Positions 158-20,160 of a stretch of 64,000 nucleotides of DNA are shown one piece after another. Under the pieces are notes generated by a model. The model saw nothing but the letters and a program-made list of their open reading frames with translations, searched no databases and was not told the DNA's origin. A program made the position numbers and the translations under genes. The stretch is from positions 5,199,501 through 5,263,500 of the forward strand of contig CP126194.1 of NCBI GenBank assembly GCA_030272155.1. The letters are read 5' to 3'. Every line of letters begins with the position of its first letter. Position 1 is the first letter of the stretch. Origin of the DNA: Tetradesmus obliquus. Lineage: Eukaryota; Chlorophyta; Chlorophyceae; Sphaeropleales; Scenedesmaceae.

Positions 158-3100
158 GTACGCCACGTGAAGGTGATCTACCACATCACGGGCGCCATCA
201 CCTTCGTGAACGAGATCCCCTGGGTCATTGAGCCGCTGTACCTGGCGCAGTGGGGCAGCATGTGGATCATGATGCGGCGAGAGAAGCGCGACCGCAGGCA
301 CTTCAAGCGCATGCGCTTCCCGCCCTTTGACGACGAGGAGCCGCCGCTGGACTATGCAGACAACCTGCTGGAGGTGGACCCGCTGGAGGTGAGGCGTTTT
401 GTTAGTTTTGTAACATGTTATGTGACATGTGACATGTTATTGGTATGTTTGTGTAGCGTGTCAAAGCGCATGCGCTTCCTGCCCTTTGACGATGAGGAGC
501 CGCCGCTGGACTATGCGGACAACCTGCTGGAGGTGGACCCGCTGGAGGTGAGGCTTGTTATCTGTGATATATAACATGTTATGTGGCATATTATGTGACT
601 TGCTGGTGTTTTGTTGAAGCGCATGCGCTTTGCACCCTATGGATGACGAGGAGTTGCCGCTGGACTATGCACATAATAAACACATCATCTGCTGTAGGAG
701 GACCCGCTAGTGGTGGGGCTGTTATGTTGTTATGTAACATAGTAGTGTAGGGCTTATGTAACATACTAGTGTAGGGCTTGATGTTCACAACTTGCCGTGT
801 GCGCAGTAGGCTGGTGCTGCCAACATCAAAACAAGGGTAGTAGTGGGGTGCATGTGGCGCGCTGTTTACAAAGCGGCTGGTTGATGTGCAGCTGATGTCC
901 GCCAGCCACGTAGAAGAGCTTTGTGTGGCTGCTGGATCTTGGCTGCATATCAGCGTGCTTCGGCTGGGTGCTTCTGTATGGATTGGATGCGTCTGAGTTT
1001 GATATGGTACTGTAGCTACTGCGCCTGGCCAAGTGATGGTGAAACAAATGATAGGAATGAGGTCCTTAGGGACGCTTGATAAGAAATGCCAATTCGCTGA
1101 TGGCCTGTTTCTGTCGTGTTAGTGTGGCTGCTGTGTCCGGAGTGTGACAGTGCTTGTTGGTGTGCTTGCAGTTGTACATGTGTGGCGGCTGATGCTAAAT
1201 TTCTCACTCAAACCACTGAACGCCGGCTTCGTGCTGTGCTTAGTGAAATAAACATCTTCCACCTTCTGACGCCACCGGTCTTGGTTGTGTGCAGCTGGTT
1301 TGGCAGCGTTGTAGTGCTTGCCGTGTGTCATTGCCTGCTACGCCTTGCATGCGCTCGTGCAGCGTCGTAATCTGGAGTCATGCTGTGATGGTATCCTCAC
1401 AACATCACCCCAGAATACAACTCTGTGTAAGCGATGGCAGAGTTCTTCAGAGTAGAGCACCACCAAACCAACCCACCCTACCCAAATTTAACATGCCCGT
1501 GTTACAGACAATCAAATGACAACATATAACAATGATGTAACATATGTTTTAATGCTCCTTTTACCACCGCAGGCCATTGAGCTGGAGCTTGACGAGGAGG
1601 AGGACGGCCCCGTGTACCAGTGGTTCTACGAGCACCAGCCGCTGAAGCACACGTCCTTTGTGAACGGCCCCAGCTACCGGCGCTGGAAGCTGCCGCTGCC
1701 CATCATGGCCGTGCTCTACAGGCTGGCGGGGCAGCTGCTGAGCGACTTTGTGGACAGGTGGGGGCGGGTTTTGGGATGTGGACGCGCTGCTGCTGTTGTG
1801 GTGCTCTTAGTGTTGTGATGTGCCAAGTGGGTGGGCTGTACAGGCTGGTGGGGCAGCTGCTGAGCGACTTCGTGGACAGGTGGGGGCGGGTGTTTAGCAG
1901 GGCTGCAATGCATTGCTGTTGAGGCCGCAGCACGGGTGCATTGATGCTGCTGTTGAAGTGCTGTGCAGGTTTTGCTCGGCAACGTATCTTGTGCAGGCAG
2001 GGACTTCTGCAGGGAGTGGCTGTGACAAGCACATGATGCATGAATTGCACAGCGCTTTTCCCACTCCTATCTGACATGGAACCGGCTGCGCCTGCCCTGC
2101 TGCCCCCAGGAACTACTTCTACCTGTTTGAGCCGAGCGCGTTTGTGACGGCCAAGTCGCTCAACATGTGCATCCCGGGCGGCCCCAAGTTTGAGCCGCTG
2201 TTCAGGGACATGGACACCCGCGATGAGGACTGGAACGAGTTTAACGACATCAACAAGCTGATCATCCGGTGCGTTGCAGTGAATCAGCTTGCTCGCTTGC
2301 AGGCTTGCAAATGCTGAATGTTTGTATTCATGTTTTGTTGTGATTTGGGTGGTTTGCATGTGCCAGAGGGGCCGGCAGGACACTCACAGCGTTGCGGGCG
2401 GCTTTGCTTGCGGTACTCTGCTCTTAGCTTGTGCACTCGTCAGCAAACTAATCACCATCTTGCCTCCTGCCGTCATCTGTTGTATGCCTGCCGCGCCGCA
2501 GCTCGCCCATCCGCACCGAATACAAGGTGGCCTCCCTTTACTTGTCACCATATCTATTCCTATTTGACATCAATTTTCACGTCCTCAATTTCCCTGCAAC
2601 TGTCCTGCACCTGTTGTATAACCATCCTTGCAGCTCGCCCATCCGCACCGAGTACAAGGTGGCCTTCCCCTACCTGTACAACAACAGGCCGCGCAAGGTG
2701 CGCCTGGGCGCCTACCACGAGCCGCTGTCCATGTACATCAAGACGGAGGACCCCGACCTGCCGGCCTTCTACTACGACCCGCTCATCCACCCGCTGCCGG
2801 CCTACAAGAGCGGCCGCGCCAGCGGCAAGGGTGAGTTTGAGCGTTCAAAGGCCTGGTCAAAGGCGTGGAAGTTGTTTGGTACATCATCTGGTGCCTGGGC
2901 AGGTGGTGGATGTCGCGTTGTTCCTTGTGGGTGCTTGCAGGGCAGCATATCGTCACACCATGCTTACTAGTGACGTGTTTTCCACAGCCCGTAGTTCTCC
3001 GCGACCTGACCCCACTCTGCCGCTGTTGCTGCTGTGCGTCTTTGTACACTTGCTGTGTGGCGGCAGACGCTGCAGAGCCGGATGCGGAGGACGACGCCGA

Positions 3101-20160: not shown

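Follow-up and report, generated by a model that had tools for sequence, protein, structure and literature searches.

In rice and Arabidopsis, patch-mediated duplications are a source of short tandem duplications. Small tandem duplications are also made by CST/Pol alpha-primase fill-in at DNA breaks, according to the part of PMC8355091 that treats this reaction, and duplication is described as an accepted route of intron gain in the relevant portion of PMC3443670. In the Rogers/AGGT model, for which vertebrate ATP2A1 is an example in the portions of PMC3443670 and PMC4974935 devoted to it, an exonic segment is duplicated and a new intron takes the resulting pair of AGGT copies as its splice sites. 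For the potato RdRp gene, the corresponding portion of PMC4974935 reports that tandem duplication of an intron end together with an exon start gave rise to a new intron, with a gain of both intron and exon sequence.

How introns lengthen, and how the spliceosome disregards near-perfect decoys, are open questions that are often studied by means of single cases or reporters. The genome of Tetradesmus obliquus (104.7 Mb, 17 contigs) supplies dozens of natural experiments that differ in age, in each of which an exon end and its splice site recur at a distance of 100-160 bases, either on the donor or on the acceptor side; in three of the genes concerned, the copy that is used is known. Introns of this alga average 462 bases, versus 230, 284, and 302 bases in three other Sphaeropleales, in the portion of PMC5966456 that gives intron lengths. 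The window analyzed here is a stretch of 64,000 bases (G000:C4:5199501-5263500) that includes the PRP8 gene.

The likeness to Rogers/AGGT intron gain lies in the duplicated splice-site sequences, and only intron 20 of PRP8, which opens like the next exon, is a candidate for that model; by contrast, 16 PRP8 copies duplicate existing junctions and lengthen introns, with no new intron and an unchanged coding sequence. Whereas potato RdRp gained intron and exon sequence in the described acceptor case, the T. obliquus copies stay intronic, donors are hit as often as acceptors, arrays occur, and many introns of a gene are affected; splicing of a copy as a new intron or exon of the potato type was not seen in the few protein records at hand for PRP8, the kinase, and the Cu-ATPase (at least one for each). 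CST/Pol alpha-primase fill-in is similar as a mutational source of short tandem duplications, but nothing in that portion of the source explains a preference for 95-165 bases or the tie to exon ends. As in minisatellites and tandem exon duplication, several loci carry three to six similar units of 100-183 bases; unlike in those systems, the units are partial exons that end at a splice site wherever the gene is known. What differs from known junction duplications is the density, the size mode, the symmetry between donors and acceptors, the arrays, and the divergence step. Among titles and abstract openings of open-licence PMC papers, we found no description of exon-end copies in introns on such a scale; other literature may hold one.

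Results

The PRP8 gene (158-20160, + strand) has 35 visible exons, and its 5' end lies beyond the window. Spliced at GT-AG introns, the exons give a single open frame of 2,229 amino acids that is 100% identical over 100% of its length to part of the annotated T. obliquus protein OEZ86_006694 (P0001), matching it as an exact string from residue 2; the residue before also agrees. The 34 introns (median, 324 bases) total 13,313 bases and the exons 6,690 bases.

When each exon was locally aligned with its adjacent introns, 17 of 68 comparisons reached a score of at least 34; 16 of these are copies of exon ends in the adjoining intron, and the 17th is intron 20. Chance is excluded as the source of the copies, because that cut-off was reached by only 1 of 1,122 non-adjacent pairs and by none of 1,122 non-adjacent pairs on the reverse strand; no reverse-strand adjacent pair (0 of 68) reached it either. 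A scan made without annotation, for similar segments 30-600 bases apart, found 55 events in the window and none in two shuffles of it, and each of the 21 events within PRP8 touches an exon end or joins two copies of one end.

A preliminary description of this DNA had listed 16 places in PRP8, all of which the alignments confirm as copies, and its even split between donors and acceptors (eight and eight) and its same-strand orientation were both borne out. Other claims need correction: the copied ends belong to 13 of the 35 exons rather than to about 17, the copied stretch measures 19-84 rather than 40-90 bases, and introns "filled" with copies was an overstatement, as copies sit in 15 of 34 introns and make up a small share of 13.3 kb of intron. 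A distance of within about 150 bases holds for the 14 of 16 copies with exon-to-copy offsets of 102-134 bases and fails in intron 1 (159 bases) and intron 27 (227 bases). Each of the 16 copies is a partial exon that lacks more than 100 bases of its source.

We directly observed the duplications, their position, their strand (always +), and their spacing. The donor-type copies are those of the ends of exon 1 (305-388, copied at 464-547; 81/84 bases identical, offset 159, with a further decayed copy at about 640-676), exon 2 (1713-1757, copied at 1835-1879; 42/45, offset 122), exon 7 (4191-4230, copied at 4293-4332; 35/40, offset 102, with GC as the donor), exon 12 (6311-6360, copied at 6416-6464; 47/50, offset 105), exon 15 (8229-8267, copied twice at 8332-8480 with a unit of 103; the first copy, 8332-8370, matches at 35/39), exon 21 (12845-12863, copied at 12968-12986; 19/19, offset 123, followed by an insertion), exon 28 (15983-16028, copied at 16092-16137; 44/46, offset 109), and exon 31 (17580-17640, copied three times at 17714-18007 with spacings of 112-134; 54/61 for the first). 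The acceptor-type copies are those of the starts of exon 4 (2634-2677, copied at 2502-2545; 39/44, offset 132), exon 7 (4022-4063, copied at 3907-3948; 41/42, offset 115), exon 10 (5357-5414, copied at 5232-5289; 46/58, offset 125), exon 15 (8056-8100, copied at 7927-7971; 43/45, offset 129), exon 16 (9023-9055, copied twice at 8795-8943 with a unit of 112-116; the nearer copy, 8911-8943, matches at 32/33), exon 17 (9567-9590, copied at 9452-9475; 24/24, offset 115, with the AG lost), exon 28 (15807-15871, copied at 15580-15643; offset 227), and exon 35 (19953-19992, copied at 19836-19875; 37/40, offset 117).

By eye, 14 of the 16 copies retain their AG or GT, and those at 9452 and 4293 have it lost or changed. 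This retention is about what a neutral divergence of 6-7% would predict, and selection on the splice sites of the copies is therefore not indicated.

Intron 20 (1,297 bases) is of a different kind. Its first 33 bases (11430-11462, + strand), which begin exactly at the 5' splice site, match the start of exon 21 (12727-12759) at 29 of 33 positions, versus 18 of 33 for the best of 1,156 other anchored pairs. By its sequence, the start of this intron is a candidate for the scar left by a duplication or insertion through which the intron was gained. The suggestion that PRP8 introns arose by duplication thus has one candidate in its favor, while the other 33 of the 34 introns have no such start (own-pair match to the downstream exon start of at most 16/33). 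The copy in intron 20 was absent from the earlier list of PRP8 copies.

Two other readings of repeated PRP8 sequence were discarded. Mutually exclusive tandem exons are ruled out by the partial nature of the copies and by offsets that are not kept in frame. Introner elements were sought by comparing the PRP8 introns with 264 kb at matches of at least 60 bases; the only dispersed matches were one pair, in introns 1 and 13, and one of 69 bases in the C2 sample. The repeat shared by introns 1 and 13 (1027-1275 and 7216-7466) is 250 bases long and 82% identical within the 264 kb searched. It looked snoRNA-like by eye, a reading that was dropped when Rfam gave no match (the window at gathering scores; 1000-1300 at E<=1).

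PRP8 is not special in carrying such duplications. A wider scan with offsets of up to 1,500 bases, covering the window and two 100-kb samples (C1:1.0-1.1 Mb and C2:3.0-3.1 Mb; 264 kb altogether), found 72 duplication clusters, 28 in the window, 39 in C1, and 5 in C2. One shuffle each of the C1 and C2 samples, like those of the window, contained none. The duplication process is strongly regional or gene specific. The smallest offset per cluster lay between 95 and 165 bases in 58 of the 72 (median among those, 121), below 95 in 6, and above 165 in 8. The C2 sample has few clusters even though coding-like windows make up 3.1% of it, versus 1.3% of C1.

Coding and splice-side tests of the cluster cores used 68 of the 72 clusters. 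The cores are enriched in coding-like sequence, with 50% above the 90th percentile of random windows drawn from the contigs concerned. When a strict splice score (5) was required, the shared splice site was on the correct side in 21 clusters, on the wrong side in 6, and on the other strand in 7; at a lax score (3), the counts were 30, 20, and 16, and outside PRP8 the lax contrast was weak (right side in 21 of 53 versus wrong side in 16). Automatic assignment of the splice side was noisy, with wrong assignments for 3 of the 19 PRP8 events listed, and no conclusion here rests on the exon/intron table derived from it.

Most PRP8 loci have only two copies, and the head-to-tail arrays in the window have units of 101, 103, 115, 116, 126, and 139 bases. 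Two consist of coding-like units, one at 22985-23554 (period of about 101; - strand, from codon usage only) and one at 26416-27222 (period of 139; codon usage indicates the - strand, and the acceptor type was judged by eye). In a gene for a Cu-transporting ATPase (58100-58680, - strand), four intronic copies of an exon start precede the real exon at a unit of 126. A single open frame runs through these copies (ORF 57822-58706, - strand), and use of an upstream acceptor would therefore add in-frame protein sequence. A run of seven 27-base units at 29574-29763, 98% matched, is unrelated in size to the other arrays.

In the C1 sample, a protein kinase gene (63.9-69 kb of the 100 kb) has eight exons, seven taken from the tblastn matches listed and the last read from the sequence, in agreement with T. 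obliquus protein P0121. By our own count, 14 copies are spread over three of its seven introns, with 3, 4, 1, 4, and 2 at five exon ends. One intronic copy (L015 7951-8037) encodes ISAGCR, as does P0121, while the exon of this genome encodes ISTGCR.

Records of the products speak to which splice sites are used. P0150, a Cu-ATPase of 1,155 amino acids, comes from contigs of at most 4.7 kb and matches the window gene, which exceeds 6 kb, at 88-100% per exon; these contigs are shorter than the gene and are therefore probably spliced sequence. P0150 holds the duplicated block once, directly joined to the upstream exon, so the four near-identical acceptors would have been skipped. Among 120 listed ATPases, 8 match the block motif, each once. 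Nor do the intronic copies appear in the proteins of PRP8 and the kinase (one or a few records each), and no use of a copy was found in the records of PRP8, the kinase, or the Cu-ATPase. Single records thus support the view that in these three genes the original splice sites are used and the copies are absent from the product. As anatomy, the picture of near-duplicate splice sites throughout the gene is apt, but no record was found that uses the copies.

Differences between PRP8 exons and their copies fell at codon positions 1, 2, and 3 in a ratio of 15:17:31, of 245, 244, and 244 sites (6.1, 7.0, and 12.7%), and the 53 changed codons comprised 26 synonymous and 27 non-synonymous changes. This is the pattern of a freely changing neutral copy set against a constrained exon. 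Coding constraint on the PRP8 copies was thus looked for and not found, and across the clusters offsets do not favor the frame (multiples of three in 24 of 58; p=0.21).

Outside PRP8, 100 of 149 differences were at position 3 (38 usable clusters). A neutral copy in an intron should not exceed 50%, and relative to that ceiling the excess has p=2e-5, or p=0.04 with a threefold higher mutation rate at GC sites; 7 of 26 clusters with at least three differences had all of them at position 3, where 1.7 were expected. Frames outside PRP8 were picked by codon usage, a method that misjudged 2 of 13 PRP8 clusters (8791 and 11428). The test covered 51 of the 72 clusters (38 outside and 13 in PRP8); the others contained a stop, had no clear frame, had a core that was too short, or had an offset below 70. 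Pairwise counts of 74:55:211 take several pairs per array and are not independent, and array singleton counts (25:25:43 for the copies) were not relied on, since some copies contribute edges that are not homologous. At some loci, the excess at position 3 suggests either that diverged alleles have exchanged sequence or that there is constraint.

A step in divergence at the splice junction was directly observed. In 14 of the 16 PRP8 events (the profile omits 9452, a copy without AG, and 12968, a copy with an insertion), exon and copy are 92% identical on the exon side, with no trend over 24 bases. On the intron side, identity is 56% at bases 3-12 past the junction, versus 42% in unrelated PRP8 introns, and 35% at bases 13-30, versus 27-28%, and it is near background from about the fifth base. 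If the exon part has diverged by 6-7% per lineage, the intron part of the same unit is expected to be about 13% diverged. A simulation of this plain model on the 16 spacers gave a median z of 17.7, all pairs detectable, and 80% identity near the junction. The observed spacers, compared with the intron beyond the copy, gave a median z of 1.5; 6 of 16 were similar at p<0.05, one of them via CTG repeats, and the other 10 showed no significant similarity. The near-junction identity was fitted at three to four times the expected intron divergence and the alignment scores at about five times or more. The alternative that the spacer is a copy of the exon body was rejected, as 0 of 16 spacers resembled it.

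A similar contrast appears between intronic copies. In 11 arrays, two intronic copies differed at 9.5% of exon-derived and 27.1% of intron-derived positions, with 556 gap columns, and exon and copy in the same arrays differed at 8.5% and 28.6%; the two contrasts being alike, exon constraint alone is not the cause. The contrast is not universal. In the 139-base array (26.4-27.2 kb), the exon-derived and intron-derived parts of the intronic copies are about equally different (means of about 16% and about 19%), and the youngest units of a young array in C1 (19.3-19.9 kb) show the reverse: the first four units have identical spacers, and their exon parts differ by up to 3.7%. The fifth unit shares its exon part with units three and four, but on the intron side it departs from the others about seven bases beyond the junction, so that homology in this array stops near the splice site.

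Direct comparison shows that young arrays (105, 108, 118, 120, and 183 bases) repeat the whole unit, so that exon part, splice site, and adjoining intron are clear in them; the duplication therefore did include intron. Within PRP8, no intron-only duplication was found at a spacing of 80-170 bases, even at relaxed cut-offs, in a search that masked known copies and so left a somewhat smaller opportunity; possible placements number 9,233 for intron-only and 4,760 for junction-spanning duplications. The one intron-only repeat reported by Tandem Repeats Finder in this context, at 730-784 in intron 1, has a unit of 24 bases and is thus well below that spacing. Faster decay of introns explains some of this absence, and a preference for exon ends may account for the rest.

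Discussion

On balance, we favor recurrent duplication of junctions combined with continuing exchange between an exon and its copies. Short stretches of DNA, preferably of about 95-165 bases, would be duplicated again and again on the same strand across exon-intron junctions in T. obliquus, placing a duplicated exon end and its splice site in the intron. Splicing would continue to use the original site next to the exon body, and the copies would for that reason be tolerated. Each event would add about one unit to an intron, and some arrays would reach three to six units. Homologous exchange, whether by gene conversion or by unequal crossing-over, would then keep the exon-derived part similar to the exon and to its sister copies. 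It would be limited to the only stretch that still matches, and the intron-derived part, a poor recombination partner, would drift freely. The two parts of this proposal differ in standing. The copies very probably arose by tandem duplication across junctions. That exchange confined to the exon-derived block causes the step at the splice site is a tentative proposal: we infer rather than observe gene conversion, the option that survived among those tested, and the clusters with all differences at position 3 speak against it, since simple exon-to-copy conversion does not predict them. Also counting against the favored account are the arrays in which the contrast is weak or reversed, the 10 PRP8 spacers with no significant similarity to the intron beyond the copy, the patchy distribution of clusters, and the weak splice-side result outside PRP8. 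We likewise infer a mutational mechanism that sets the unit size, which resembles that of a nucleosome or an Okazaki fragment.

The earlier idea of intron growth by tandem duplication accordingly stands as far as same-strand, junction-straddling copies and young arrays with exon and intron parts are concerned, but plain neutral decay does not fit what followed. Tandem duplication across splice junctions and then neutral decay, with nothing else, would account for the codon-position pattern of the PRP8 copies, for the repetition of young arrays as whole units, and for the lack of an exon/intron contrast at 26.4-27.2 kb. We nevertheless think it quite unlikely to be the full account, given the gulf between the simulated and observed spacers, the copy-copy contrast over 11 arrays, and the lack of intron-only duplications in PRP8, where they have about twice as many placements; quantitatively it is rejected unless intron DNA changes about three to five times faster than exon-derived DNA in the same intron. 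Copies with synonymous differences, and introns that were unlike at birth, could instead stem from unequal exchange in which the partners were hybrid haplotypes or alleles that had strongly diverged. The position-3 excess outside PRP8 is consistent with such an origin, as are the cluster at C1 68734, where 9 of 9 differences over 106 bases are synonymous, and the kinase copy that agrees with the exon of another T. obliquus protein rather than with its own, although its alanine could equally be ancestral. In PRP8, where the frames are true, there is no such excess (31 of 63), and a silent-site divergence of about 10%, which is our guess, would leave introns alignable; we regard this origin as unlikely.

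Maintenance by function is another reading, in which the copies serve as decoy or alternative splice sites or as weakly coding alternative exon ends under purifying selection. It would explain why exon-derived parts change more slowly than flanking intron even between intronic copies in most arrays, and the position-3 excess outside PRP8 and the single open frame of the Cu-ATPase array would agree with it. But about half of the changed PRP8 codons are non-synonymous, offsets do not keep the frame, splice dinucleotides decay at about the neutral rate, an exon end alone could hardly stand in for an exon, and P0150 lacks all four Cu-ATPase copies; purifying selection is in our judgment very unlikely. 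Haplotype-switch duplications are known in genome assemblies and provide a precedent for false tandem duplication, but the copies here are diverged, often multi-unit, regular in size, tied to exon ends, and present in three regions on contigs C1, C2, and C4. Diverged copies in regular arrays would be unlike collapse or haplotig errors, and an assembly artefact seems extremely improbable.

Within the favored combination of duplication and exchange, a bolder version can be framed, in which exon ends are duplication hot spots with a roughly nucleosome-sized unit and the exon is a master that overwrites its intronic copies. We consider it doubtful, yet if it were true, introns would grow outward from exons, genes would carry families of near-identical splice sites, and the spliceosome would reliably pick the site that adjoins the exon body, even where four near-identical acceptors come before it. 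The sharp change in divergence at the splice site sets exon-linked exchange apart from neutral decay.

In genomes of this kind, automatic prediction may set exon ends wrongly, as happened with a gene finder trained on PRP8: it recovered 32-33 of the 35 exons, added 12-35 wrong ones, copies included, and fused neighboring genes; it was abandoned after retraining made it degenerate. Annotated T. obliquus gene models may be distorted as well, as a comparison of two kinase records suggests: the model P0123 (OEZ85_007558, 327 amino acids) lacks most of the long C-terminal part of P0121.
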